Source: Oscillibacter valericigenes (lineage in GTDB: Bacteria > Bacillota > Clostridia > Oscillospirales > Oscillospiraceae). Taken from it: DNA of 64,000 bases. Of this stretch, positions 5,515 through 18,899 are shown one piece after another (within the stretch, counting starts at the first letter, position 1; the number at the start of each line of letters is the position of its first letter). Below the pieces are notes generated by a model. It had not been told where the DNA came from. It saw only the letters and a program-made list of their open reading frames with translations, and searched no databases. The translations under genes were made by a program, and so were the position numbers. The stretch spans positions 1-64,000 of the forward strand of contig NZ_JACSNX010000006.1 in the NCBI RefSeq assembly GCF_016902445.1. The letters run 5' to 3'.

Positions 5515-6379
5515 CAAATCCTCCTGGAAGCATTTTTTGTGCGAAGATCTCACAAAAACTCCGCTCGGACAGGCGCACCAGCTTCACCACATGCTTGGAC
5601 CGGCGGACCTGTACCTTGTCATCGGCCTTCAGTGCAAAGGCCCGGCTCTCGTCCACGAACAGATACACCGGCTTGCGGCCGTTGCGCTCCAGTTCGATGG
5701 TCAGCGTGTGCTCCGGAGACAGCACATAGGACGAAAACCGCATATTGTGGGTGCAGATGGGACAGACCACCATGGTCTGGGCCACCGGCTCCACCACCGG
5801 CCCTCCGGCGGAGAGCGAGTAGGCCGTGGACCCGGTGGGGGTGGCCACGATGACGCCGTCCCCTGCAATGTCCGCCAGGTGCCGGCCGTCGGAGGAGATT
5901 TTCAAATGGATCACATGGGAGATGGGGCCCTCCCGGATCACCGCGTCGTTGAGACCCAGGTTCGTGTAGATCTGGCGGCCCTCCCGCTGGACGGAGACGT
6001 CCAGCATCATCCGCTGCTCCGTCTGGAAGTCCCAGTCCTTCAGCTTCCGCAGGGCCTCCAGCTCTCCGGCCTCCAGCTCCGCGATGAAGCCCAGCCCCCC
6101 CATGTTGATGCCCAGCACCGGGATCTTGTTCAGGGCCACCAGCTTGGCCAGGTGCAGGATGGTGCCGTCCCCGCCGAAGGTGATCAGCAGGTCGGCGGTC
6201 TTCAGCTCCGCCGTCAGGGGCCGGGTCTTGTAGTCGCCGTAGGCGCCGTCCTTCTGGTCCTTGAAGGGGGGGCACACCACCGTCTGGAACCCCATCTCCC
6301 GCAGGATGGCATCCGCCCGGCGGGTGGCCTCCATGCCCCGGTCCCGGTTGGGATTGGGGCAGAGGATGATCTTTTTCAT
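5501..6379 (-). CDS. nadK: NAD kinase
   Basis: Phosphorylates NAD+ to NADP+. The 292-residue protein has the GGDGT motif (69-73), the NMGGLGFIAE region and the conserved TPTGSTAYSLSAGGP segment of the substrate site. Its ATG overlaps the tlyA stop (ATGA), and its end overlaps the argR start. The operon order dxs-tlyA-nadK-argR is widespread in Firmicutes. Confidence 0.95.
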   Translation of the reverse strand: MKKIILCPNPNRDRGMEATRRADAILREMGFQTVVCPPFKDQKDGAYGDYKTRPLTAELKTADLLITFGGDGTILHLAKLVALNKIPVLGINMGGLGFIAELEAGELEALRKLKDWDFQTEQRMMLDVSVQREGRQIYTNLGLNDAVIREGPISHVIHLKISSDGRHLADIAGDGVIVATPTGSTAYSLSAGGPVVEPVAQTMVVCPICTHNMRFSSYVLSPEHTLTIELERNGRKPVYLFVDESRAFALKADDKVQVRRSKHVVKLVRLSERSFCEIFAQKMLPGGFDDEK

Positions 6380-7200
6380 GTGGTGCCTCCCTCTCCGTGC
6401 TCTTTCAGGGTCTGGTGGGACTCTTCCACCAGGGCCTTGAGGTCAAATGTGCGCTCCTGCCAGGGGCCCTTCTCCAGATACCCCAGGTACTCGATGTTCC
6501 CCTCCGGGCCGCGGATGGGAGAGTACGTCAATCCAAGGACTGTAAAGCCGGATTCCTTCGCATAGTCCAGGAAGTGCTCCAGCACCTCCAGGTGGACGTC
6601 TGGGTCCCGGACCACGCCCTTCTTCCCCACCTTCTCCCGGCCGGCCTCGAACTGGGGCTTTACCAGGCAGGCGGCGTGGCCGCCGTCCTTCAGAAGGCCG
6701 TTCAGGGGCGGCAGGATCAGCTTCAGGGAGATGAAGCTCACGTCCACAGAGGCGAAGTCCAGCTCATCTGGTACCTGCTCATGGGTCAGATACCGGGCGT
6801 TGGTCCGCTCCAGGCACACCACCCGGGGATCGCTGCGGAGCTTCCAGGCCAGCTGGCCGTAGCCCACATCCACGGCGTAAACCTTTTCCGCACCGTTCTG
6901 CAGCATGCAGTCGGTAAAGCCGCCGGTGGAAGCCCCGATATCGGCGCAGACCGCGCCGTGAAGGTCGATGGGGAAGGTCGCCATGGCCTTTTCCAGCTTT
7001 AGCCCGCCACGGCTCACATAGGCCAGTGTGCCGCCCCGGATCTCGATCTGGGCGTCCTCCGCCACGGCGGTGCCGGGCTTGTCCACCCGCTGGCCGTTGA
7101 CAAAGACCTCGCCGCTCATGATGACCGCCTGGGCCCTCTGGCGGCTCTCCTGAAGGCCCCGCTCCGTCAACAGGACGTCCAGCCGTTTCTTTCCGCTCAT
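6376..7200 (-). CDS. tlyA: TlyA family rRNA 2'-O-methyltransferase
   Basis: Predicted SAM-dependent RNA methyltransferase of the TlyA/hemolysin-A family; characterised members methylate 2'-hydroxyls of rRNA. An N-terminal S4 RNA-binding domain (about 1-60, RLDVLLTERGL) precedes an FtsJ-like Rossmann domain with ADIGASTGGFTDCML as the SAM-binding loop. The ATG at 7200 overlaps the dxs TGA (ATGA) and is preceded by GGGAGG; an upstream in-frame extension of five residues is less likely. Length 274. Confidence 0.9.
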   Translation of the reverse strand: MSGKKRLDVLLTERGLQESRQRAQAVIMSGEVFVNGQRVDKPGTAVAEDAQIEIRGGTLAYVSRGGLKLEKAMATFPIDLHGAVCADIGASTGGFTDCMLQNGAEKVYAVDVGYGQLAWKLRSDPRVVCLERTNARYLTHEQVPDELDFASVDVSFISLKLILPPLNGLLKDGGHAACLVKPQFEAGREKVGKKGVVRDPDVHLEVLEHFLDYAKESGFTVLGLTYSPIRGPEGNIEYLGYLEKGPWQERTFDLKALVEESHQTLKEHGEGGTT

Positions 7201-9047
7201 GTACTCGCCTCCCAAACCGCCCGGGCGATGCCCTCGGCGTCGATCCCGGCCTTATGCTGCAACTGGGGCACTGTCCCCTCCGGCAGGAAGGCCTTGCCCA
7301 GATTGATCAATATCAGCTTCTCCGGTGCTGCTCCGTGCTGGGCCAGGATGGCCGCCACCCGCTGGCCCGCGCAGCCGGCGCCGAAGGCGTCCTCCGCCAC
7401 CGCCAGCATCCGCTTGCCGGACAGCCAGGGCGCCAGCGTCTCATACTCCAGGGGGGAGATCTGATTCAGCTTCAGCACCTCCGCCTGGATGCCACGCTCC
7501 GCCAGCAGGTCCGCCGCCTCCAGCGCCTGGTTCACCAGCACGCCGTAGGTCAGGATGGCGGCGTCCGCCCCCCTCCGGAGCCGGACCACCGGCTGACCGG
7601 ATCGGTCCTCCCGATAGGCGCCTTCGCCGCCACGGGGATACCGGACCGCCACAGGGCCGGCGATCTCAAACAGCGCCTGCCGCACCATCTTCCGCAGTTC
7701 GGCAAAGCTGGCGGGGCACAGCACGGTGAATCCGGGGATCTCCGACAGGAACAGGGCGTCAAAGCAGCCGTGGTGGGTCTCGCCGTCGGCGCCCACCAGG
7801 CCCGCCCGGTCCACCCCCAGCACCACGTGGAGCTGCTGGAGAGCCACGTCGTGGATCAGCTGGTCATAGCCCCGCTGCAGGAAGGAGGAGTACACGGCAA
7901 ACACCGGGATCATCCCCTGCTTGGCAAGGCCCGCCGCCATGGCCACTCCGTGCCCCTCGGCGATGGCCACGTCGAAGAACCGGTCCGGAAACTCTTTGGC
8001 AAAGGGAGCCAGACCCGTGCCGTCCGCCATGGCGGCAGTGATGGCGCAGACCCGCCCGTCCTCGGCGGCGCAGGCGGCCAATGTCCTGCCGAACACGGCG
8101 GAGAAGTCGTCTCCGCCCTTCTTTTTCAAGAGACCCGTCTCGGGATCGAAGGGGCCTATACCGTGGAACTTGTCGGGATTCTGCTCTGCAAAGGAGTAGC
8201 CCTTTCCCTTCACCGTCTTCACATGGACCACAACCGGGCACCGGAGCTCCCGGGCCCACTCCAGAACGTGGACCAGGCGGTCCAGATCGTGGCCGTCGAT
8301 GGGGCCCAGGTAGGTGAAGCCCATGTCCTCAAACAGGGTGCTTCCGGGCCACAGTGCTTTTTTCAGTGAGGTCTTGACCTTGTGGTTGAAGCGGTACAGC
8401 CGATTCTCCATGGGATGGGCTCCGAAGAGGCTCCGGTACCACTTCTTGAAATGGTAGTATGCGGGCTTGGAGCGGATCTGGCTCAGGTGGCTGTCCACTG
8501 CCCCCACGTTGGGATTGATGGACATGCCGTTGTCGTTGAGGATGACGATCAGCGGCTCTCTGCTGGCGCCGGCGTTGTTCAGCCCCTCATAGGCCAGCCC
8601 GCCGGTGAGGGCACCGTCCCCGATCAGGGCCAGGACGCTGTAGTCCTCATGCTGTAAAGTTCTGGCCCTTGCCATTCCGAGGGCCACAGACACGGAGTTT
8701 GAAGCGTGTCCGGCGATGAAGGCGTCGTGCTCGCTCTCCCGGGGCTTGGGGAAGCCGGAGAGGCCCCCGAACTGCCGCAGGGTGGAAAACAGCTCCTGCC
8801 GCCCGGTGAGAGCCTTGTGGACGTAGCATTGGTGGCCCACGTCGAACACCAGCCGGTCCCTGGACGTATCAAACACCCGGTGGATGGCCACTGTCAGCTC
8901 CACTGCCCCCAGGTTGGAGGCCAGGTGCCCGCCGGTCTGGGACACATGCTCCACCAGGAATTGCCGCAGCTCCCGGCACAGGGGCTCCAGCTGGTCCCGG
9001 TCCAGGGCTTTCACGTCCGCCGGGGCATGGATATTCTCTAAGATCAA
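7197..9047 (-). CDS. dxs: 1-deoxy-D-xylulose-5-phosphate synthase
   Basis: First enzyme of the non-mevalonate isoprenoid pathway, condensing pyruvate and glyceraldehyde-3-phosphate on thiamine diphosphate. The 616 residues show the TPP-binding region (GDGALTGGLAYEGLNN, with the later N for Mg2+), the pyrimidine-domain glutamate (AIAEGHGVAMAAGLA) and the transketolase C-terminal domain. The start is TTG, preceded by AGAGGAGG immediately after the oapA stop. Together with ispA upstream it makes the region an isoprenoid cluster. Confidence 0.96.
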   Translation of the reverse strand: MILENIHAPADVKALDRDQLEPLCRELRQFLVEHVSQTGGHLASNLGAVELTVAIHRVFDTSRDRLVFDVGHQCYVHKALTGRQELFSTLRQFGGLSGFPKPRESEHDAFIAGHASNSVSVALGMARARTLQHEDYSVLALIGDGALTGGLAYEGLNNAGASREPLIVILNDNGMSINPNVGAVDSHLSQIRSKPAYYHFKKWYRSLFGAHPMENRLYRFNHKVKTSLKKALWPGSTLFEDMGFTYLGPIDGHDLDRLVHVLEWARELRCPVVVHVKTVKGKGYSFAEQNPDKFHGIGPFDPETGLLKKKGGDDFSAVFGRTLAACAAEDGRVCAITAAMADGTGLAPFAKEFPDRFFDVAIAEGHGVAMAAGLAKQGMIPVFAVYSSFLQRGYDQLIHDVALQQLHVVLGVDRAGLVGADGETHHGCFDALFLSEIPGFTVLCPASFAELRKMVRQALFEIAGPVAVRYPRGGEGAYREDRSGQPVVRLRRGADAAILTYGVLVNQALEAADLLAERGIQAEVLKLNQISPLEYETLAPWLSGKRMLAVAEDAFGAGCAGQRVAAILAQHGAAPEKLILINLGKAFLPEGTVPQLQHKAGIDAEGIARAVWEAST

Positions 9048-9063
9048 GTCTGCCAGCCTCCTC

Positions 9064-9627
9064 TCAGCGGTGGAACAGGTGCAGAAACCGTCCCACCCAG
9101 TAGACCACGCTGGTGCTTTTGTTCAGGGCCACCGTCTTGCCCAGAGCCTTGCCGCCGATGGTGAGTCCGGACACCAGCGCCGTCACCGCCACGCTCAGCA
9201 GCACGCTCTCCGGCAGGCTGAAGGCCGCCTGGAGCCGCACCACGATCACGGCAGTGGTGGTGCCGCTGACGATGCCGCAGATGTCCCCCACCACGTCGTT
9301 GCAGACGCTGGATACCCGCCCGGCGTTCCGCAGCAGCATCAGCGCCTCCTTGGCTCCCGGCTCCTTGTGGGCGGCCATGGAGTGAAAGGGCCTGGGGTCC
9401 GCTGCTGTGACTGCCACGCCGATGATGTCGAACAGGATGCCCAGGCCGATAAACACCGCCAGCACCAGCCCGGCCGCCGCCGCGCCCGCTCCGCCAAGGC
9501 TCACCTCAGACGCCAGACTCAGCGCCGCCGACAGACAGATGGCAAGAAAAAAGACCTGTACGGCCCAACGGTAGGGGCCCGGTCGTTCCTTCGCCCGTCT
9601 GCGCTTTTGATTTGGGATATCGCTCAA
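9064..9627 (-). CDS. oapA: OLE-associated membrane protein OapA (DUF21-like)
   Basis: A 187-residue integral membrane protein with about four hydrophobic segments (roughly 20-40, 50-72, 115-135, 140-160) and conserved stretches GILFDIIGVAVTAADPRPFH and CNDVVGDICGIVSG. These resemble the DUF21/CorB-type membrane domain without CBS domains. Its position, immediately after a long structured non-coding segment and before dxs, is that of OapA, the protein that binds OLE RNA at the membrane in Bacillus halodurans. I infer the same role. The start is TTG at 9627, preceded by GGAGGG; upstream in-frame codons run into the RNA and lack an RBS. Confidence 0.82.
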   Translation of the reverse strand: MSDIPNQKRRRAKERPGPYRWAVQVFFLAICLSAALSLASEVSLGGAGAAAAGLVLAVFIGLGILFDIIGVAVTAADPRPFHSMAAHKEPGAKEALMLLRNAGRVSSVCNDVVGDICGIVSGTTTAVIVVRLQAAFSLPESVLLSVAVTALVSGLTIGGKALGKTVALNKSTSVVYWVGRFLHLFHR

Positions 9628-9654
9628 AAAAGTCCCTCCACTTGGGAATGAATG

Positions 9655-10312
9655 CAATCGGCTAAGCCGGCGGCGGAAAAGGTAAATCTTACGGCTTAGG
9701 TACGGGTTGGATTTCCCCGCAGCACACCTCTCGTTGCCGATGGAGGCGGTTCCCCCTTCGGTGCTGCGGCACAGTGTCGCCAACTGTGCCACCCGATCGC
9801 CACTGAGTCCGCACTGCAATCCCTTTTCAGCCCGGTATGACAGCCTAGGTGTTTTCCACCCCAGTCGATCCGTCTCGTTAGCCTCTTTTGCAAACCGGGT
9901 TTCAGGAGGCGATCGGACGGCGGCTCTGGCCAGAGCGGCCGGTCCGTTGTTCCCCCATCCACCCGCCTCACGCAAGGCAGGCTACGTCTGCACACAGCGT
10001 TACGGCCCCGCAGGACCGATGCACCGCACTGCAGGTTCATCAGCTGCTTCGTACGCGGGCCGGAATACCACACTGGGAGTACGTCCGCGCACAAGAACAG
10101 GTCTCCACGGAAACAGGGTCGTCATCACCATGCCATTGGAAAGCGCCCTGAGTCCGCAAGCGCAGGCAAAGCCAGGCTTCCCCCCAGCACCCACCCGAAA
10201 CTGGGCGTATCAAGCAGGCACCAGAGGTTTCATCGGTGTGCCCTTCAGAGGATTTTTAGCCCCTCCTTCGGAGACGGATGATCTGACTAGAATACTGCGC
10301 CGCCGCTTAGCG
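9655..10312 (-). ncRNA. ole: OLE RNA (ornate, large, extremophilic RNA)
   Basis: A gap of more than 800 bp between ispA and oapA with no credible protein, its own consensus promoter and many complementary segments. For example, CTAAGCCG (9662-9669) pairs with CGGCTTAG (9692-9699) near the 3' end. The gene order nusB-xseA-xseB-ispA-[RNA]-oapA-dxs-tlyA is that of the OLE locus in B. halodurans and other anaerobic or extremophilic Firmicutes, and the size (about 660 nt) fits. OLE forms a membrane ribonucleoprotein with OapA (and OapB/OapC, not in this window) linked to stress tolerance. The identity rests on synteny, size and lack of ORFs, not a covariance search. The ends are approximate. Confidence 0.8.
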
Positions 10313-10318
10313 CCAATC

Positions 10319-10347
10319 AGTATAACACAAATCTAATAAATATACAA
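10319..10347 (-). promoter_or_regulatory. sigma-A promoter of the OLE RNA
   Basis: On the minus strand TTGTAT (10342-10347), a 17-bp spacer and TATACT (10319-10324). Transcription would begin near 10312, downstream of the ispA terminator, so OLE-oapA-dxs can be expressed independently of ispA. Confidence 0.8.
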
Positions 10348-10414
10348 CATATTCCGTATATGCATTGGTAAATTTTTTGTGACCTGCAAGGCTGTCTGCC
10401 GCGGATGAACAGGC

Positions 10415-10440
10415 AGAAAAGAGGCCGCCCGCAGGCGGCC
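10415..10440 (-). terminator. terminator after ispA
   Basis: GGCCGCC (10423-10429) pairs with GGCGGCC (10434-10440). On the minus strand it is followed by TCTTTTCT. It separates the nusB-xseA-xseB-ispA transcript from the OLE promoter. Confidence 0.7.
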
Positions 10441-10451
10441 CCAGGTCCTCT

Positions 10452-11333
10452 TCACTTGTTCCGCTCCGCCAGGGAGTCCGCCAGGGCGGCCAGGAAACCG
10501 TCCGCGTCAAAGTCCGCCACCGCGGCCTTGGCCGCCTCCGTATGGGCGCGGACTGCCCGGTCACAGCCGCTGAGCCCCAGCAGGTCCACGAAGGTGACCT
10601 TCCCCTCCTCTTTGTCGGAGCCGATGGGTTTGCCGAACTCCTCCGCGTCGCCGCACACGTCCAGCATGTCGTCCCGGATCTGGAAGGCCAGGCCCAGCTC
10701 CTGGGCGTAGACGTGGGCGGCGGCCATCAGGTCCTCCCCGCCGCCGGCGGCGGCCACGCCGAGACGGCAGGCCCCGGCAATCATGGCCCCGGTCTTGAGG
10801 CGGTGGACCTCCGTCACCTCCGCCTCTGTCCGGGGGGCGTGGAGGGTGTCCAGCACCTGGCCCGCCACCATGCCGTCCGCGCCGGAGGCTTCTGACAGGA
10901 TGCGGCCGCAGATGGCCCGGCGGCCGTCGTCCAGCCCCGGCGCCGTCAGGATCAGGCGGTATGCCTCCGGCTGGAGGGCGTCTCCTGCCAGAACGGCCAG
11001 CGTCTCGCCGTAGACCTTGTGGTTGGTGGGCTTGCCCCGGCGCAGGTCGTCGTTGTCCATGCAGGGCAGGTCGTCGTGGATCAGGGAATAGGTGTGGACC
11101 AGCTCCAATGCGCAGGCCACGGGCAGGGCCGTCTCCCAGTCCGCAAGGCCCGCCAGCCGTGCAAACTCCAGCGTCAGCACCGGCCGGATCCGCTTGCCCC
11201 CCGCCAGCAGGCTGTACCGCATGGACTCGTACAGGTCCCGCCAGTCCGGCTTTCCGGCAAAGAGCGTCTCCAGATACGATTCCACCGCCGTCCGGTACGC
11301 CTCGTACCGGGTCTGGAACACCTGTTCGGTCAT
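10452..11333 (-). CDS. ispA: farnesyl/geranyl diphosphate synthase
   Basis: Elongates DMAPP with IPP to C10-C15 prenyl diphosphates. The 293-residue all-helical prenyltransferase has the first Asp-rich motif (DDLPCMDNDD) and the second (DDMLDV) that bind Mg-diphosphate, with the bulky residues before the first motif typical of short-chain synthases. Its ATG overlaps the xseB stop by four bases. The xseA-xseB-ispA-(OLE)-dxs order links it to isoprenoid supply. Confidence 0.94.
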   Translation of the reverse strand: MTEQVFQTRYEAYRTAVESYLETLFAGKPDWRDLYESMRYSLLAGGKRIRPVLTLEFARLAGLADWETALPVACALELVHTYSLIHDDLPCMDNDDLRRGKPTNHKVYGETLAVLAGDALQPEAYRLILTAPGLDDGRRAICGRILSEASGADGMVAGQVLDTLHAPRTEAEVTEVHRLKTGAMIAGACRLGVAAAGGGEDLMAAAHVYAQELGLAFQIRDDMLDVCGDAEEFGKPIGSDKEEGKVTFVDLLGLSGCDRAVRAHTEAAKAAVADFDADGFLAALADSLAERNK

Positions 11334-11569
11334 GGCTGGGCCTCCTCTCCGAAGGGCAGCTCCAACGGCGCGCCGTCGGGGCCCTTCATCAGCTTGACCA
11401 CCTTCTGCTCCGCCGCGTCCAGCTCCTTGGAGCAGGCGGCGATCAGCTTCGTCCCCTCCTCGAACAACGCCAGGGAGTCCGCCAGGGGAGCGTCTCCCTT
11501 CTCCAGGGCCGCCACGATCTCCTCCAGCCGGGCGATCTCCTGCTCAAACGTCTGTTTCTTTGCGCTCAT
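11330..11569 (-). CDS. xseB: exodeoxyribonuclease VII small subunit
   Basis: Small subunit that assembles in several copies on XseA to form the single-strand exonuclease VII. The 79 residues contain the typical FEQEIARLEEIVAALEKGDAPLADSLALFEEG-type helical hairpin (about 8-40). Start and stop overlap xseA and ispA by four bases each. Confidence 0.95.
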   Translation of the reverse strand: MSAKKQTFEQEIARLEEIVAALEKGDAPLADSLALFEEGTKLIAACSKELDAAEQKVVKLMKGPDGAPLELPFGEEAQP

Positions 11570-12783
11570 GACCGTTCCTCCTTCGTATAGGGCTTGTCCA
11601 CCACGGCGGTGAAGCCGCCCTCTCCCAGGGTGACGGACACCCGGCTGCCCGGTGCCGTCTCCCGATAGCTTTTCAAGATCCTGCCGTTTTCATCCCGGGC
11701 CACGGCATAGCCCCGGCCCAGCACCGCCAGGGGGCTCATGGCGTCCAGGGACGCCGCCAGGGCCGCAAATTTTTGCCGGTGACGGGCCAGCACTGCGCCG
11801 GTCACGTCCCCCAGCCGCTGCTGCAGGTGGTCCAGATCCAGCCGCTTGTCCTGGACGTAGGCCAGGCCGTCGGTCATCACCCGCTTGGACGCCAGGGCGG
11901 TGAGCCGCTGGCGGGCGGCCTCCAGCCGCTGCGTCTCGCTCTGGGCCATCCGCTCCCCGGCGCCCCGGAGCCACCGCAGCAGCTCCACCTGGTCCGGCAC
12001 GGCGATCTCCGCCGCGTTGGAGGGGGTGGATGCCCGCGCGTCCGCCACGAAGTCGGCGATGGTCACGTCCGGCTCGTGACCCACGGCGGAGATGACGGGA
12101 GTCTCGCAGTCGTAGATGGCCCGGGCCACCCGCTCGTCGTTGAAGGACCACAGGTCCTCCATGGACCCGCCGCCCCGGCCGGTGATGATGACGTCCCCGA
12201 TCTTCCACTTGTCCGCGTACCGGATGGCCCCCACGATCTCCGGCGGGGCCTCGGGCCCCTGGACCCGCACCGGCAGCAGGATCACCTTGGCGATGGGGTA
12301 CCGCCGCCGGAGGATGCGGATCATGTCGTGGACCGCCGCCCCGGCGCCGGAGGTAACGATGGCGATCCTCTCCGGATAGGGCGGCAGGGGCTTTTTGTGG
12401 GCGGGGTCGAACAATCCCTCCTTCCACAGCTTCTCCTTCAGCTGCTGGAAGGCTACCGCCAGGTCCCCCACCCCCTCCGGGATCAGGGTGTCGCAGTAGA
12501 GCTGATAGGCCCCGTCCCGGGGAAACACAGTGATGCGGCCGGAGACCACGGCCTTCATGCCGTTCTCCGGCCGGAACCGGAGGCGGGAGGCCTGTCCCCG
12601 GAACATGACACACCGGAGGGCCCCCTCGCTGTCCTTCAGGGTGAAATAGTGGTGGCCGGAGGGGTAGATCTTGTAGTTGGACAGCTCCCCCCGGACGGCG
12701 ACGCCCTGTAAAGCCGGTGTACTGTCCAGAAGGCTCTTCACCAGCTGATTCACCTCTGTGACGCCGTAGATATGTGGTTCCAT
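11566..12783 (-). CDS. xseA: exodeoxyribonuclease VII large subunit
   Basis: Catalytic subunit of exonuclease VII, degrading single-stranded DNA from both ends. The 405 residues have an N-terminal OB-fold (about 1-100, with VRGELSNYK) and the nuclease domain including GRGGGSMEDLWSFNDE, followed by a long helical region. It is translationally coupled to xseB. Confidence 0.95.
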   Translation of the reverse strand: MEPHIYGVTEVNQLVKSLLDSTPALQGVAVRGELSNYKIYPSGHHYFTLKDSEGALRCVMFRGQASRLRFRPENGMKAVVSGRITVFPRDGAYQLYCDTLIPEGVGDLAVAFQQLKEKLWKEGLFDPAHKKPLPPYPERIAIVTSGAGAAVHDMIRILRRRYPIAKVILLPVRVQGPEAPPEIVGAIRYADKWKIGDVIITGRGGGSMEDLWSFNDERVARAIYDCETPVISAVGHEPDVTIADFVADARASTPSNAAEIAVPDQVELLRWLRGAGERMAQSETQRLEAARQRLTALASKRVMTDGLAYVQDKRLDLDHLQQRLGDVTGAVLARHRQKFAALAASLDAMSPLAVLGRGYAVARDENGRILKSYRETAPGSRVSVTLGEGGFTAVVDKPYTKEERS

Positions 12784-12869: not shown

Positions 12870-13319
12870 TTATTCCGCTGTCTCCTGGCGCACGAAGGTG
12901 CCCAGGATGCCGTTGATGAACTTCACCGTCTCCGGTGTCTCGTACTTCTTGGCGATCTCCACCGCCTCGTTGATGGAGGCGCCGTGGGGGATGTCCGGCA
13001 TGTACAAGATCTCGTACATGGCCACCCGCATGATGGCGGAGGCCACCAGGGGGATCCGGGCAAAGCTCCACCCCTTGGAATATTTGGCGATATACCCGTC
13101 CAGCTCCGGGGCGTGATCGGCCACGCCCCGCACCAGGCGGCGGATGTAGTCCGCCTGCTTGGCATTGGGCGTCTCCTGATACAGCGGGTCCTCCTCCGCC
13201 AGGGCGGCGAAGGACTCCGGTGTCAGGCGCTCGTCCAGCAGCTCCTCCACCGACTTGTCGGTGAAGCTCAGCTCATAGGACAGGTGAACGGCGATCTCTC
13301 GTGCGGTGTTCCGTACCAT
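12870..13319 (-). CDS. nusB: transcription antitermination factor NusB
   Basis: RNA-binding antitermination factor that with NusE (S10) recognises boxA of rRNA operons. The 149-residue helical protein opens with the characteristic TAREIAVHLSYE region and has the conserved central and C-terminal helices (YIAKYSKGW, LYMPDIPHGASINEAVEIAKKY). It lies upstream of xseA with an 86-bp gap. Confidence 0.93.
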   Translation of the reverse strand: MVRNTAREIAVHLSYELSFTDKSVEELLDERLTPESFAALAEEDPLYQETPNAKQADYIRRLVRGVADHAPELDGYIAKYSKGWSFARIPLVASAIMRVAMYEILYMPDIPHGASINEAVEIAKKYETPETVKFINGILGTFVRQETAE

Positions 13320-13856: not shown

Positions 13857-14420
13857 CTAATTTGAGGCCATGATCTTGATGCCGCTGGCGGGATAGCCGG
13901 TCTCCGTCATGGCGATGTCGGTGATCTTGGCCACGTCCTCCGCCGTCAGCTCGCCGGTGCCGGTGTCCACCACCACGCTGATGCTGTCCTCCCCCATGAA
14001 GGCCACGCAGTCGGCGTAGCCCTTGGCGGTCACCAGGTTCTCGATCTGGGCCTCCTTCATGGTGTAGCCCGCCAGCACGGCGATGCCCTCAGAGGCCTCG
14101 TTGGCCACGGACGTGTCGGCACCGGGCTGGTCCGCCGCCTCCTGCAGCAGGGAGATGGCGTTGTCCCGGGCCTGCTGCCGCGTCAGCCGGGCGGAGGCGA
14201 AGTAGTCGTCTCCGGTGTACACCGCCTCCTCATCCGCCGCGGCTTCACCGCCGTCCTCCTGGCCGCTGACCAGGGTTGCCTCCCCCAGGATCTTGGTGCC
14301 GGTCTCCTCCACGGTCTCCGCCGCCTGCTCGCCGGTGTACTTCCAGTTCAGCGCCACGGCGGCGCACACCAGCAGCGCCATGGTCACCACCACGGCATTC
14401 CGTTTCCATCTCGCGCTCAT
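13857..14420 (-). CDS. spoIIIAH: stage III sporulation protein AH
   Basis: Mother-cell component of the SpoIIIA-SpoIIQ channel linking mother cell and forespore; the C-terminal YscJ/FliF-like domain forms a ring. The 187 residues have one N-terminal membrane helix (about 9-27), an acidic linker and the ring-building domain (AENQ-like helix DNAISLLQEAAD, ending GYPASGIKIMASN). The ATG at 14420 follows AGGAGGAAGAAG; an alternative ATG about 30 bp upstream overlaps the spoIIIAG stop. Confidence 0.92.
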   Translation of the reverse strand: MSARWKRNAVVVTMALLVCAAVALNWKYTGEQAAETVEETGTKILGEATLVSGQEDGGEAAADEEAVYTGDDYFASARLTRQQARDNAISLLQEAADQPGADTSVANEASEGIAVLAGYTMKEAQIENLVTAKGYADCVAFMGEDSISVVVDTGTGELTAEDVAKITDIAMTETGYPASGIKIMASN

Positions 14421-14443
14421 AGGCTTCTTCCTCCTCCAGATCA

Positions 14444-14962
14444 TCACTGCGATTTTGCCACGGTGATGCGGTCTGCGGAAAGGCCGGTCAGCGCGGCCAC
14501 CGCCTCCGTCACCGCCAGCTTCACGTCCGCCCGGTCTCCCCCCTGGCACACCACCAGGGCCCCCCGGTAGGTGGGATACACCGTCCGGGTCACCACCGGT
14601 GTCTCGGCGCTGCCGCCGTCCACCAGCACGGTCTGGGAGGAACGGGAATAGTCCTCCGGCGCCGCCGTGGAGCCGCTGTAGGACAGCTCCGAGTCCTCCG
14701 CCAGCTGCCGCTCGCCGTCCGAGTCCACCGTCAGCAGCACCCGGACCTCCCCCACGCCCTGGATGCGGCCCAGGATGTCCTCCATCTCCTCCTGGAGCTC
14801 TGCTTGAACGGCTGAGACTGCCTGGGGTGAAGTCCGCTCCGCCGTCTCTTCTCTCCCGCTGGGCCATAGCAGCAGCAGTACGCCCGCCAGGGCTACCAGT
14901 GCCACGAATTTGTACTTGTCCCATATCCTTCGCACTCCTTCAGTCTTCTGTGTTCCGCTCAT
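14444..14962 (-). CDS. spoIIIAG: stage III sporulation protein AG
   Basis: Ring-forming component of the SpoIIIA feeding-tube apparatus. The 172 residues have a membrane helix (about 17-34) and an extracytoplasmic domain with GVGEVRVLLTVDSDGE and VVTRTVYPTYRGALVVCQG, typical of AG. The ATG at 14962 overlaps the 3' end of spoIIIAF by 23 bp and is preceded by GGAGAGGCAGG. Confidence 0.92.
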   Translation of the reverse strand: MSGTQKTEGVRRIWDKYKFVALVALAGVLLLLWPSGREETAERTSPQAVSAVQAELQEEMEDILGRIQGVGEVRVLLTVDSDGERQLAEDSELSYSGSTAAPEDYSRSSQTVLVDGGSAETPVVTRTVYPTYRGALVVCQGGDRADVKLAVTEAVAALTGLSADRITVAKSQ

Positions 14963-15425
14963 GCCAAACCTGCCTCTCCGCCGGGATGCCCAGTTCTGTC
15001 TCCAGAGCGGACGCAAGCGCCTCCGACCGCGCCCCCGCCAGCTCCGCGGACCAGGGGACCGGGACGCCGTCCTCGCCGGTCCGGGTCTCCACCCGGACGG
15101 TCACCTCCGCTCCCAGCTCGCCCGCTTTGTTCAATATATATGCTTCGGTCTGCTCCGCTATGATAGAAGCCATGGCCTCTGTCTGCGTGTCCGCCAGCTC
15201 CGCCTGCCGCTCCTCCACCGCCGTCTGGTAGTCGGAAAGATCGAGCGCCAGCCGGTCCAGGTCCGCCCCCAGCACCGGCTGCAGCAGCACCAGCAGCAGG
15301 ATGAGCCCGCCGGTGAAGCCCGCCGCCTTCCGCACGGTGCCCGGCGGGATCAGGCTCTGGGCCGCCGACAGCAGCACCGACACCAGCACCACGGAGGTCA
15401 GCCACACCCGCACCGCCTCCATCAT
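14940..15425 (-). CDS. spoIIIAF: stage III sporulation protein AF
   Basis: Membrane component of the SpoIIIA complex. The 161 residues carry two N-terminal membrane helices (about 5-23 and 33-52) and a soluble C-terminal domain. The ATG (15425) overlaps the TGA of spoIIIAE in ATGA; the following ATG is an alternative start. The same frame continues open far into spoIIIAE, but that part is not coding. Confidence 0.88.
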   Translation of the reverse strand: MMEAVRVWLTSVVLVSVLLSAAQSLIPPGTVRKAAGFTGGLILLLVLLQPVLGADLDRLALDLSDYQTAVEERQAELADTQTEAMASIIAEQTEAYILNKAGELGAEVTVRVETRTGEDGVPVPWSAELAGARSEALASALETELGIPAERQVWHERNTED

Positions 15426-16495
15426 GGCATCACCGCCCCCACGGAGGCCAGCACGGAGATGAGCAGCAGCAGCGCGCAGCTGCCGGTCATGCCCAGGATG
15501 AGCCCGAAGGCGCCTCCCAGCCCGTCGATGAGCTTGCACAGCCCCGGCGCCCCCACCACGGAGGCCAGGTACGCCGTCCCCTTGTACAGCAGGTACTGGA
15601 CCCCCAGCTGCAGAAAGGGATAGGCGCAGGCCGCCAGGATGGCCAGCATTCCGAAGACGCCGATGGTGTTCTTCAGCATACCGGCCCCGGCCAGCACCGT
15701 CTCCGACGCGTCGGCGATGATCCCGCCCACCACCGGCACCACGCCGGAGATGGCGGCCTTGGTCACCTTCACCGTGGCGCTGTCCGCGGAGCCGGAGATG
15801 ATCCGCACCACGGAGAGGTACACGGTGAACACCAGCAGCGCCGTGGTGAGCAGCCAGGTCACCAGCTTCTTCAGCCCCTCGGCGATGGCCCCCAGCCGGT
15901 TTTCCGGCAGGCAGGCCGCCGCCGTCAGCAGGCCGATGTACAGGTACACCAGGGGCAGCAGCAGCTCCCGGATCAGCCGCAGCAGCAGGTCCACGAAGAA
16001 CACGGTGGACACCTGCTGCACCGTGGCGGTGGTGATGGCTCCGCTGGCCGCCGTGGCCGTCGCCAGGGTGGGCAACAGCGCCTGGGAGAAGTCCGCCAGC
16101 TCCCCGATGGTCTGGCTGCCCAGGCCCATCAGGGTGTCCAGGCTCCCGGCGGAGGCCAGGGTGATGGACAGCGCCCCCGCCATGGGCAGAAACGCCGCGC
16201 CCTTTCCCTGGATGCCCTGGGCGAAGCCCTCCACCGCGCCGCAAAGGACCACCACCAGCAGCACTGCCGCCGCGCCCCGGGTCCGCTCACGGACCACGTC
16301 TCCCACCTGGTCCGCCAGCCGGGAGAGGATATTCCCCACGCCCTGGGCAAAGCCTGTCCCGCCAGAGAGGTCCCCGTCCGCCAGGTCCTCCGCCGCCTCC
16401 GGGGCGGCGCGCTCCAGGTCTGCCGGCAGGTCCGACGCCCTGGCGGAGGTGGTCAGCGCCAGCACCAGCGCCGCCAAACAGATCCACCATTTCAT
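15422..16495 (-). CDS. spoIIIAE: stage III sporulation protein AE
   Basis: Polytopic membrane subunit of the SpoIIIA channel. The 357 residues begin with a signal-like segment (MKWWICLAALVLALTTS) and then have about eight hydrophobic segments, with the conserved VVPVVGGIIADASETVLAG region. The ATG at 16495 overlaps the spoIIIAD stop; an in-frame upstream extension is the antiframe of AD. Confidence 0.92.
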   Translation of the reverse strand: MKWWICLAALVLALTTSARASDLPADLERAAPEAAEDLADGDLSGGTGFAQGVGNILSRLADQVGDVVRERTRGAAAVLLVVVLCGAVEGFAQGIQGKGAAFLPMAGALSITLASAGSLDTLMGLGSQTIGELADFSQALLPTLATATAASGAITTATVQQVSTVFFVDLLLRLIRELLLPLVYLYIGLLTAAACLPENRLGAIAEGLKKLVTWLLTTALLVFTVYLSVVRIISGSADSATVKVTKAAISGVVPVVGGIIADASETVLAGAGMLKNTIGVFGMLAILAACAYPFLQLGVQYLLYKGTAYLASVVGAPGLCKLIDGLGGAFGLILGMTGSCALLLLISVLASVGAVMP

Positions 16496-16881
16496 CCCAT
16501 CAGCTCCATCAGCATGTCCAGCACCGCCCGCAGCAGCGGCAGGGCCGCCAGCAGGGCGCAGAGGGTCCCCGCTGTCTCCACCACGGAGGCCAGGGCGCTC
16601 TCGCCCGCGTCCCGGCAGAGATTTCCCCCCACCTGCACCACCAGGGCGATGCCGATGGTCTTGTACAGGGGCGTGAACAGGTCCGGCGGCACGCCGCTGC
16701 CTGCGGCCAGTTCCTCCAGGAAGGCCAACAGCTCCTCCACGACGCCTGCCAGCGCCAGGGCCACCACCACGGCGGCCCCCACCGCCAGCAGCAGCGCCGT
16801 CTCCGGACTGCCCCGCTTCACCACCAGGGCCAGCAGCGCCCCCACCACGCACAGCCCCGTCACCTGGATGACCTGCTCCAT
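16492..16881 (-). CDS. spoIIIAD: stage III sporulation protein AD
   Basis: 129-residue membrane protein of the SpoIIIA complex, with helices at about 5-24, 29-50, 74-95 and 99-125 and the conserved LFTPLYKTIGIALVVQVGGNLCRDAG stretch (part quoted). Four-base overlap with spoIIIAE and one-base gap to spoIIIAC. Confidence 0.92.
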   Translation of the reverse strand: MEQVIQVTGLCVVGALLALVVKRGSPETALLLAVGAAVVVALALAGVVEELLAFLEELAAGSGVPPDLFTPLYKTIGIALVVQVGGNLCRDAGESALASVVETAGTLCALLAALPLLRAVLDMLMELMG

Positions 16882-16882
16882 G

Positions 16883-17077
16883 TCAGAAGTCGAACAGGGA
16901 CTTGATGAGGTCGAACAGGTCGCTGATCTCCTGCACCATCAGCATCAGTACGCACACCAGCCCCGCCAGCACCACCATCAGCCCCTGCTCCTCCCGGCCC
17001 GAGCGGATCAGCAGCTGGTTCAGCACCGCCACCAGAATGCCGATGGCGGCGATCTTGAAAATCAAATCCACTTCCAT
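16883..17077 (-). CDS. spoIIIAC: stage III sporulation protein AC
   Basis: 64-residue two-helix membrane protein (helices about 5-25 and 32-52) of the SpoIIIA complex, ending in the usual IKSLFDF-like amphipathic tail. Confidence 0.92.
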   Translation of the reverse strand: MEVDLIFKIAAIGILVAVLNQLLIRSGREEQGLMVVLAGLVCVLMLMVQEISDLFDLIKSLFDF

Positions 17078-17089
17078 GTGTCGTCCTCA

Positions 17090-17587
17090 TCAAATCAGTA
17101 AGATCACCAGCAGCGCCGCGCCGGAGAGCCACAGCGCCGCGGACCGCTTCTCCGTCTCCTGTCGGCGGTCTCGGGTGAGCTCCAGGTCCTTCCGCAGCGA
17201 TTTGTTGGTAAGTAAGATTGCTTTACAGATATTCTCCTCATCTCCCTGGAGCGCGTCTCCCATGGCTGCCAGGGCCTGCCGGTCCTCCAGGCGCAGGGGC
17301 AGGGCCTCGGCGGCGGAGCGCCAGCTCTGCCCCAGGGGGGCGCCCCGGGCCAGCGACGATGCCACGGAGGTACAGAACGCCCGGACGTCCGCCGTCCGGT
17401 CCCGGCCCAGCGTCCCCAACAGCCGGGGCAGGCTGGTCCGGCGGAGCCGGATCTCCTCCGCCATGCGGTCCAGCAGGGCGATGAGGTCCGCCAGCGTGTC
17501 CAATTCCCGCCTGCGCTCCGCCAGCCCCCGCCGCCAGGCCCAGGCGCCGGCCCCCAGGATGCACGCCGCCCCCAGCAGCTTCACCAT
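17090..17587 (-). CDS. spoIIIAB: stage III sporulation protein AB
   Basis: 165-residue protein with N- and C-terminal membrane helices (about 3-20 and 150-165) and a helical soluble core containing the LADLIALLDRMAEEIRLRRTSL segment (part quoted), resembling the GspF/T2SS platform fold. Its start overlaps the spoIIIAA stop by seven bases. Confidence 0.9.
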   Translation of the reverse strand: MVKLLGAACILGAGAWAWRRGLAERRRELDTLADLIALLDRMAEEIRLRRTSLPRLLGTLGRDRTADVRAFCTSVASSLARGAPLGQSWRSAAEALPLRLEDRQALAAMGDALQGDEENICKAILLTNKSLRKDLELTRDRRQETEKRSAALWLSGAALLVILLI

Positions 17588-18495
17588 GGCAGTTCCTCCA
17601 CTTCATACGTCCTTCCGCTTCCCTCCCGGCGGATGCAGACCGCCAGGCGGAACACCCCCTCCGCCAGCAGCTGCCGGTACAGCGGCCGCTGGTCCAGCTG
17701 CTCCGCATCGGCGGCGTGGATGGTGGCCAGCAGCCCCACGCCGCAGCCGGCGGCCTGGACGGCGGCCCGCAGGTCCGCCTCCGCCGTGATCTCGTCCACG
17801 GCGATGACCTGGGGGTTCATGGCCCGCAGGGCCATTGGAATGCCCAGAGCCTTGGGACAGGCGTCCAGCACATCGGTCCGGAGGCCCACATCCATTTGGG
17901 GCGCGCCCCGGACCATCACCGCCACCTCCCCCCGCTCGTCGATGAGGGAGACCCGCAGGCCCGGTCGTCCCGCCCCCCCTGTGGAGAGGCACCGGACCAG
18001 GTCCCGCAGCAGCGTGGTCTTGCCGCCCCCCGGCGGGGACAGCAGCAGGGTATTCTGATACCGCCCCGCCTGGAACAGCCGGGGGACGATGTCCTCTCCC
18101 ACGCCCCGCCGCTCCCGGGCGATGCGGACGGCGGCGGAGGACAGATCCCGCAGGGCGGTGTTCTCCCCGCCCTTCATCACCGCCGTGCCGCACAGCCCCA
18201 CCCGGAAGCCGCCCCGGACGGCCAGATACCCCTCCCGCAGGGTCTCCGCCGCCGCGTAGCGGGAGTAGTCCGTGGCCAGGTCGCAGAGGTCCTCCAGGTC
18301 CTCCGTCGTCACGGCATCCCCAAGAGACCGCTCCCCCTCCGGCAGCAGCACCGCCAGCGGCCGCCCCGCCCGGAGGCGGAACTCCTCCGCCAGCCGTCGC
18401 ACCTCCGGCGGCTGGGCCAGTGCCAGGCTCCGCAGCCGGCCCGGCAGCACCCGGGCCGCCTCCTCGTACCGGCGGATGGCCGTCTCGTCCTCCAT
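17581..18495 (-). CDS. spoIIIAA: stage III sporulation protein AA (ATPase)
   Basis: Secretion-ATPase-like P-loop protein that powers or assembles the SpoIIIA apparatus. The 304 residues show Walker A SPPGGGKT (153-160) and Walker B-like VIAVDEI. The ATG at 18495 gives the family length; the preceding 74 codons in frame cross the promoter region. It is the first gene of the eight-gene spoIIIA operon, all overlapping or closely spaced. Confidence 0.93.
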   Translation of the reverse strand: MEDETAIRRYEEAARVLPGRLRSLALAQPPEVRRLAEEFRLRAGRPLAVLLPEGERSLGDAVTTEDLEDLCDLATDYSRYAAAETLREGYLAVRGGFRVGLCGTAVMKGGENTALRDLSSAAVRIARERRGVGEDIVPRLFQAGRYQNTLLLSPPGGGKTTLLRDLVRCLSTGGAGRPGLRVSLIDERGEVAVMVRGAPQMDVGLRTDVLDACPKALGIPMALRAMNPQVIAVDEITAEADLRAAVQAAGCGVGLLATIHAADAEQLDQRPLYRQLLAEGVFRLAVCIRREGSGRTYEVEELPW

Positions 18496-18524
18496 GGGCA
18501 GCGCCCCCTTTCGTAACACGCTAT

Positions 18525-18554
18525 ACTCTATGAGAGGTTGTCCCCGGATATGAC
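18525..18554 (-). promoter_or_regulatory. candidate sigma-E promoter of spoIIIA
   Basis: On the minus strand GTCATATC (18547-18554), 14 bp, CATAGAGT (18525-18532). This resembles the mother-cell sigma-E consensus (ATA-type -35, CATAnAnT -10), the known control of spoIIIA in Bacillus. A small inverted repeat (GTCCCT 18560-18565 with AGGGAC 18571-18576) lies upstream. Confidence 0.5.
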
Positions 18555-18590
18555 TGCCGGTCCCTAAAAAAGGGACAGGCTTGTAAAAAT

Positions 18591-18652
18591 GGAAAGTAAG
18601 CTTGACATGAGGGCGGACCTGTGCTATGTTGATAATGGAAAGCAAACTTTCC
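18591..18652 (+). promoter_or_regulatory. promoter and operators of the XRE regulator operon
   Basis: TTGACA (18602-18607), 17-bp spacer, TATGTT (18625-18630). GGAAAGTAAGCTT (18591-18603) overlaps the -35, and the perfect palindrome GGAAAG-CAAA-CTTTCC (18637-18652) covers the start region. The shared GGAAAGnAAnCTT suggests autoregulatory operators for the HTH protein encoded next. Confidence 0.7.
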
Positions 18653-18695
18653 GTCTGTTGTGAGGCGGATGGAGCGGGAGAGGAGGCGGACGCAC

Positions 18696-18899
18696 TTGAA
18701 AAACCGGTTGGAAGCACTGCGCAAGGCCCGGGGCATCAAGCAGGAGGAGCTGGCGGAGGCGCTGGAGGTGTCCCGCCAGACCATCGGGTCCCTGGAGAAC
18801 GGGCGGTACAACCCCTCCATCCTGCTGGCCTTCAAAATCGCCCGGTACTTCGGCACCACCATTGAGGACATTTTCATCTATGAGGAGGGGGAGACATGA
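18696..18899 (+). CDS. XRE-family transcriptional regulator
   Basis: A 67-residue stand-alone HTH protein of the small family whose core reads QEELAEALEVSRQTIGSLENGRYNPS and ends IEDIFIYEEGE (parts quoted); such proteins usually regulate the membrane-protein genes beside them. The start is set at TTG 18696, preceded by AGGAGG, because it gives the standard N-terminus (xKNRLEALRKARGI); an in-frame ATG at 18669 lacks a good SD. Its stop overlaps the next gene (ATGA). Confidence 0.85.
   Translation: MKNRLEALRKARGIKQEELAEALEVSRQTIGSLENGRYNPSILLAFKIARYFGTTIEDIFIYEEGET

Follow-up and report, generated by a model that had tools for sequence, protein, structure and literature searches.

The minus strand of a 64,000-nucleotide stretch of the Oscillibacter valericigenes genome (contig NZ_JACSNX010000006.1, positions 1 to 64,000; hereafter the window) encodes an OLE RNA whose locus is ordinary and intact in its partners and surroundings and unusual in its OapC site. 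A further-reaching reading, to which we assign a probability of roughly 0.45, is that Oscillospiraceae carry a structural class of OLE RNA whose kink turn (k-turn) 1a has been abolished by insertion of an evolving hairpin, that the particle persists, and that OapC either acts wholly through k-turn 1b or has been lost, the losses falling mostly where J4a/5 has changed as well. Among conserved bacterial RNAs OLE ranks with the largest, and it has no known biochemical job. A preliminary description of this DNA had proposed the RNA and its neighbour OapA; the extra hairpin and the altered OapC site were not seen in it.

Identity of the RNA and genomic context

The Rfam covariance model for OLE (RF01071; gathering score 50 bits) matches positions 10319–9651 of the minus strand across model positions 1–616 (387.4 bits, E = 2.8e-110), one of two Rfam matches above the gathering score in the window, and it is practically certain that this region is a genuine OLE RNA. 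The preliminary description had placed such an RNA within 9600–10350 on this strand, in a gap of more than 800 bp without a gene between ispA and a DUF21-like gene, and both statements stand: 824 bases separate the end of ispA at 10452 from the TTG start of oapA at 9627, and the gap is explained by the full-length match that lies in it. A single copy was found in the genome assembly (2.84 Mb, 106 contigs, 96.5% complete).

According to Pfam, the minus strand reads spoIIIA genes, Asp23/YqhY, nusB (12870–13319), xseA (11566–12783), xseB (11330–11569), ispA (polyprenyl synthetase; 10452–11333), OLE, oapA (9064–9627), dxs (7197–9047), a tlyA-type S4/FtsJ methyltransferase gene (6376–7215), NAD kinase and argR, in agreement with the order from nusB to tlyA given previously. 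We take nusB-xseA-xseB-ispA-RNA-oapA-dxs-tlyA to be the order of the B. halodurans OLE locus as well. The spoIIIA genes lie at 13857–18717, directly upstream of Asp23/YqhY-nusB; Pfam recognizes AA, AB, AC/AD, AE and AH, with a sixth reading frame giving no match. They fit the earlier label of a gut-type spore former, as do the nearest named relatives, Candidatus Oscillibacter excrementigallinarum and Candidatus Oscillibacter pullicola, with OapA identities of 94% and 93%.

The preliminary description had also credited the RNA with a consensus promoter, which a strict sigma-70 scan over 9000–10500 did not return (no promoters found). A promoter-like element (10347–10319, minus strand) can be read by eye, consisting of TTGTAT (10347–10342), 17 nt and TG-T-TATACT, with the −10 box at 10324–10319. 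A best-match promoter scan of 136 distinct upstream stretches scored 8.5, against 6.6 for base-shuffled sequence; the TG extension of the −10 box occurs in 85 of 135 stretches, and similar patterns precede the RNA in relatives, at a distance that varies. A strong terminator-like hairpin just 3′ of ispA (10421–10442, minus strand; nine pairs, eight of them G–C, then TTTT) sets OLE apart from the genes upstream, so that OLE probably has its own promoter. Since the first bases of the model match overlap the −10 box, the true 5′ end probably lies at about 10308–10312.

Partner proteins

The oapA gene encodes 187 residues on the minus strand behind a Shine–Dalgarno sequence, GGAGGG, and was assigned from Pfam and alignment. 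The protein is diverged, its match to PF01595 (CNNM/DUF21-like) scoring 28.7 bits, barely over the cut-off of 28.4. It contains neither a CBS nor a CorC domain. The DxxxD motif, described as distinctive of OapA in the text of PMC11332333, reads DVVGD, and neither aspartate, D111 or D115, varies among 38 aligned rows. OapA shares a CNNM-like domain with the MpfA/CorC/CorB Mg2+ transporters but differs from them in lacking the CBS and CorC domains and in possessing DxxxD. Two MpfA-type CNNM-CBS-CorC proteins (L032 and L033; G000 C96:32087-32611 and C2:234636-235226) coexist with OLE in this genome; OLE genomes typically carry at most one MpfA according to the text of PMC11332333. Among family loci, oapA often starts with TTG behind a Shine–Dalgarno sequence, not with ATG (position 9627 in the window; 40 family loci, with script-chosen starts). 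In one genome (G029), a 786-residue frame (L259 894-3254) that looks like a secreted lipoprotein from its sequence lies between OLE and oapA, parting them by ∼2.5 kb.

OapB is encoded between map and infA and matches the structure deposited as 'OLE-associated protein B' (PDB code 7k9b; E = 2.1e-7), and one bS21 is encoded in the genome. The only L7Ae-family match in the genome sits between rpoC and rpsL; its best matches are the YbxF structures 3v7e and 4lck (E = 4e-12), and by these marks we identify this predicted L7Ae-fold protein as OapC (YbxF) and not YlxQ. Its GxKQ motif is invariant in 24 aligned rows and supplies the binding glycine, which would correspond to G15 of H. halodurans.

OLE was found in 56 of 200 sampled family genomes, a patchy distribution counted with filters able to lose weak matches, and in 151 of 391 genomes sampled from the class. 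OapA was found in 57 of the 200, among them all 56 OLE genomes; the remaining one (G185) is only 70% complete. This co-occurrence, with the CNNM/DUF21-like match and the DxxxD motif, upholds the earlier assignment of OapA beside OLE. The occurrence of OLE in gut Bacillota, reduced variants included, is already described in the text of PMC11332333, and the presence of the locus alone is not new. The RNA of G184, considered as a possible P7/P8-deleted OLE, was ruled out as such, being truncated by a contig end and aligning from model position 82 on.

Taken by its sequence, the region very probably encodes a functional OLE RNA with its membrane partner OapA. By analogy with H. halodurans, the RNA would be made from its own promoter, dimerize and bind OapA at the membrane, and the particle may help the cell to cope with stress of four kinds (Mg2+, alcohol, cold and carbon); with high confidence we expect an OLE–OapA particle to be active here.

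Structural elements of the RNA

The loops that would make dimer contacts are all present in the sequence of the window. On the minus strand these are the P4 loop CUAAAAAU (10252–10259, from the model alignment), an A–A dimer contact seen by cryo-EM according to the texts of PMC12286853 and PMC12265935, and, in the text of PMC12265935, the kissing-loop partners of P5.1 (CGCCCA, 10202–10207) and P6 (CAAUGGCAUG, 10129–10138) and the symmetric kissing loop of P9 (UGGCCA, 9927–9932). P7–P9 and P13 all align to the model, and the P12.2/P13 region (9725–9760, minus strand), given as the OapB-binding site in the text of PMC12265935, is aligned in full. Energy folding of the isolated P4a–P6 segment gave a structure no more stable than shuffled sequence (z = −0.27), and the minimum-energy fold differs from that of the model; the evidence for structure is therefore the covariance model, not thermodynamics.

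That this RNA is a decaying relic heading for loss is highly improbable: the alignment takes in the dimer loops and conserved blocks, the OapA reading frame is whole, the locus is shared with close relatives and the extra stem covaries, even though OLE is patchy in the family (56/200) and 387.4 bits falls below the 390-bit 'full-length' score in the text of PMC11332333, which belongs to a different model and is not directly comparable. OLE variants 1 (TANB77) and 2 (RF39), as described in the text of PMC11332333, resemble the present case in coming from gut bacteria, in their lower covariance scores and in often missing OapC. They shorten or lose P7–P9 or the P13 site, whereas the RNA of the window retains both and adds sequence at J5/6, and with P7–P9 and P13 aligned it is neither variant.

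Compared with the OLE of H. (Bacillus) halodurans, taken from the Rfam consensus RF01071 and the text of the papers, the locus is alike in its full-length match, in OapA directly downstream, in encoding OapB, OapC and bS21, and in the alignment of P7–P9 and P13. It differs at two junctions. J4a/5, which forms the 5′ side of the kink turn for OapC, reads CC-GAU-GAAA (10228–10236, minus strand) where UC-GAU-GAAG is canonical, and the UUAA of J5/6 is replaced by an extra hairpin (10158–10179, minus strand) preceded by G and followed by GC.

An inserted hairpin at J5/6

J5/6, which links P5 to P6, is the canonical short UUAAG in 17 of the 56 family OLE RNAs, and 39, the window included, have a hairpin instead (L045 and L268 among them were re-read individually). 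For other families, 98 RNAs were fetched from 149 non-family matches; all 90 that could be parsed by pattern have a short J5/6, with UUAAG or letters of similar length, as do six of the remaining eight by eye, giving 96 of 98 (L239 and L257 were unread at J5/6). A further 80 named loci, 71 of them parsed at this junction, comprised 23 short and 48 extended. The 87 extended loci (39 + 48) yield 69 distinct inserts, of 15 to 182 nt as cut by script.

The outer four pairs of the insert are standard in all 69. The first is A–U throughout, the second is A–U in 41 and G–C in 28, and pairs 3–7 occur as several pair types that change on both sides. A terminal stem of at least five pairs forms in 87% of inserts and in 5.7% of base-shuffled ones, the register being the best fit for real and shuffled inserts alike. 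The J5/6 insert is, on this pattern of compensating letters, a predicted covarying hairpin common in Oscillospiraceae OLE. The stem in the window itself is weak, with four outer pairs followed by an imperfect inner stem. Some organisms of this group are in culture, among them Sporobacter termitidis DSM 10068, whose RNA (L088) has the extra hairpin. In L041, L043 and L071 the hairpin has expanded to 182, 109 and 117 nt, respectively; the first, with a terminal stem of 20 pairs, could represent a small mobile element.

The type of J5/6 changes at least four times on an OapA tree (56 rows) and at least three times on an rpsL–rpsG tree (47 rows; rpoC, available for 10 of the 47, was mostly dropped). 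The text consulted from PMC11332333, PMC9723947, PMC12265935, PMC12054373 and PMC12286853 mentions no hairpin at J5/6, although figures or supplements may draw one; common variation is named for J6/7 through P8 in the text of PMC12265935. A full-text literature search returned no paper joining OLE RNA with Oscillibacter.

Predicted consequences for the kink turns

In k-turn 1a, J4a/5 pairs with J5/6 (text of PMC9723947), and in k-turn 1b, seen by cryo-EM, it pairs with J6/7 (text of PMC12286853); the two are mutually exclusive and both are candidate OapC sites (text of PMC12054373). Positions 84–92 below follow our own assignment to the H. halodurans numbering used in the text of PMC9723947, made without the H. 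halodurans sequence. In the window, a hairpin stands next to P5 where k-turn 1a has the UUAAG strand of J5/6, and with that strand gone OapC should be unable to use the published k-turn 1a here. The elements of k-turn 1b are in place as read from the sequence, namely C85 and GA in J4a/5 and the GGAG of J6/7, which model alignment places within a conserved GUGGAGA (10102–10108, minus strand) as the predicted 3′ strand; position 84 would pair non-canonically in this turn, C opposite A.

Short-strand RNAs are nearly uniform at these positions: the J4a/5 bulge is GAU in 15 of 17 from the family and 89 of 98 from other families (L255 by eye), and position 92 carries G in every one of the 17 and in 97 of the 98. 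The 39 extra-hairpin RNAs have U (17), C (nine), A (nine) or G (four) at position 84 and A (25), G (11) or U (three) at position 92; their bulge is UGU in 26, GAU in four, GUU in four, UUU in three and GGU and UAU in one each. C85 is kept in all 39, and so is the GGAG of J6/7 (36 GGAGA, one GGAGG and two GGAGG by eye). Positions 84 and 92 have thus drifted while C85 and GGAG are kept. The pairs peculiar to k-turn 1a therefore appear to have been released, whereas the 5′ core common to both turns and the strand of 1b persist. K-turn 1b is not fully canonical in these RNAs, because its second C-helix pair (position 84 with an A in J6/7) is unmaintained.

The inserted hairpin could instead be a replacement type-1a kink turn, with its own flanks, G–A before and GC after, substituting for UUAAG. 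The flanks are indeed conserved (82 of the 87 loci have GC after the stem, and all 69 distinct inserts begin with an A–U pair), but we could draw no pairing with J4a/5 comparable to that of GAAG with UUAA, and the shift of position 92, from G in all 17 short-strand RNAs of the family to A in 25, G in 11 and U in three of 39, is what loss of the old pair would predict. We consider a replacement turn unlikely. As regards the window, the likeliest arrangement would be for OapC to dock on k-turn 1b, J4a/5 pairing with J6/7, a proposal that we put at even odds.

OapC and the type of OLE RNA

OapC was typed with rpsL as the anchor. All 15 testable short-strand family genomes have it (two were untestable). 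Of the 39 extra-hairpin genomes, 13 have OapC and 17 lack it, two are unclear at contig ends and seven were untestable; the genome of the window belongs to this type and retains OapC. Outside the family the search covered 80 of the 98 genomes, and 75 had rpsL, with an OapC match in 65 and none in ten; 64 of the 65 matches lie beside rpsL by eye and one (G203) is split by a contig end. The ten genomes without a match fall in three families (f10, f42 and f59). In their RNAs (L194, L195, L220–L222, L239–L241, L257 and L258) the bulge is changed in nine of ten, to GUU in six, and J5/6 is short in all eight that were read there.

Remaining L7Ae matches in OapC-lacking genomes were considered as a moved OapC and rejected for the loci fetched, all nine of which look like YlxQ. 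Eight came from eight different members of the group of 17 extra-hairpin genomes without OapC; the ninth was a second match in a genome that has OapC. NusA-like and YlxR-like motifs occur on the strand of the match in nine of nine; these motifs are short and fuzzy, and on the nine opposite strands the former matched 0 times and the latter twice. One weak match to the OapC model (15 bits) was seen.

It is possible, if somewhat doubtful, that the OLE particle works without OapC at the RNA, the protein (YbxF) being kept for other k-turn RNAs, the kink turn of OLE being an RNA fold only and the hairpin marking loss of OapC function. OLE and OapA are retained in the 17 of 30 testable extra-hairpin genomes without OapC at rpsL, and L7Ae-family matches (YbxF and YlxQ pooled) occur in 158 of 200 family genomes regardless of OLE. 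The conservation of J6/7 extends to genomes with and without OapC, and so OapC alone does not account for it. Against this, OapC seemingly constrains the bulge: with 120 of 154 genomes having an OapC call and kinship ignored, none of the 93 genomes with OapC has a middle U, against 12 of the 27 that lack the protein (L255 by eye), and the corresponding counts within the extra-hairpin genomes alone are 0 of 13 and 6 of 17. GAU, likewise with kinship ignored, is found in 81 of 93 genomes with OapC versus two of 27 without it.

The state of OapC changes at least twice on the OapA tree (56 rows) and at least three times on the rpsL–rpsG tree (47 rows), and absence occurs on the trees only among the extra-hairpin rows of the family. 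The trees themselves cannot tell gain from loss; we read the changes as losses because OapC occupies its place at rpsL in 65 of 75 other-family genomes. One extra-hairpin genome without OapC (G105) keeps the GAU bulge, and in G242, from another family, OapC is missing although J4a/5 is canonical and J5/6 short. With so few changes of OapC, and with G242, G105 and the eight short J5/6 strands read in OapC-lacking genomes of other families speaking against a simple coupling, the apparent coupling between extra hairpin and OapC absence is suggestive only.

Implications

J5/6 tolerates up to about 180 extra bases and may be a useful place for tagging or imaging. OapC is essential in H. halodurans, yet only some 45% of the organisms with OLE have it according to the text of PMC11332333. 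A group from which k-turn 1a has been removed, and in which OapC is kept or absent depending on the member, would provide a natural experiment on the site of OapC and on the need for it. If the reading of an OLE class with a destroyed k-turn 1a is true, this turn would be dispensable and the Oscillospiraceae would offer a natural series of OLE particles, some retaining OapC and others lacking it.
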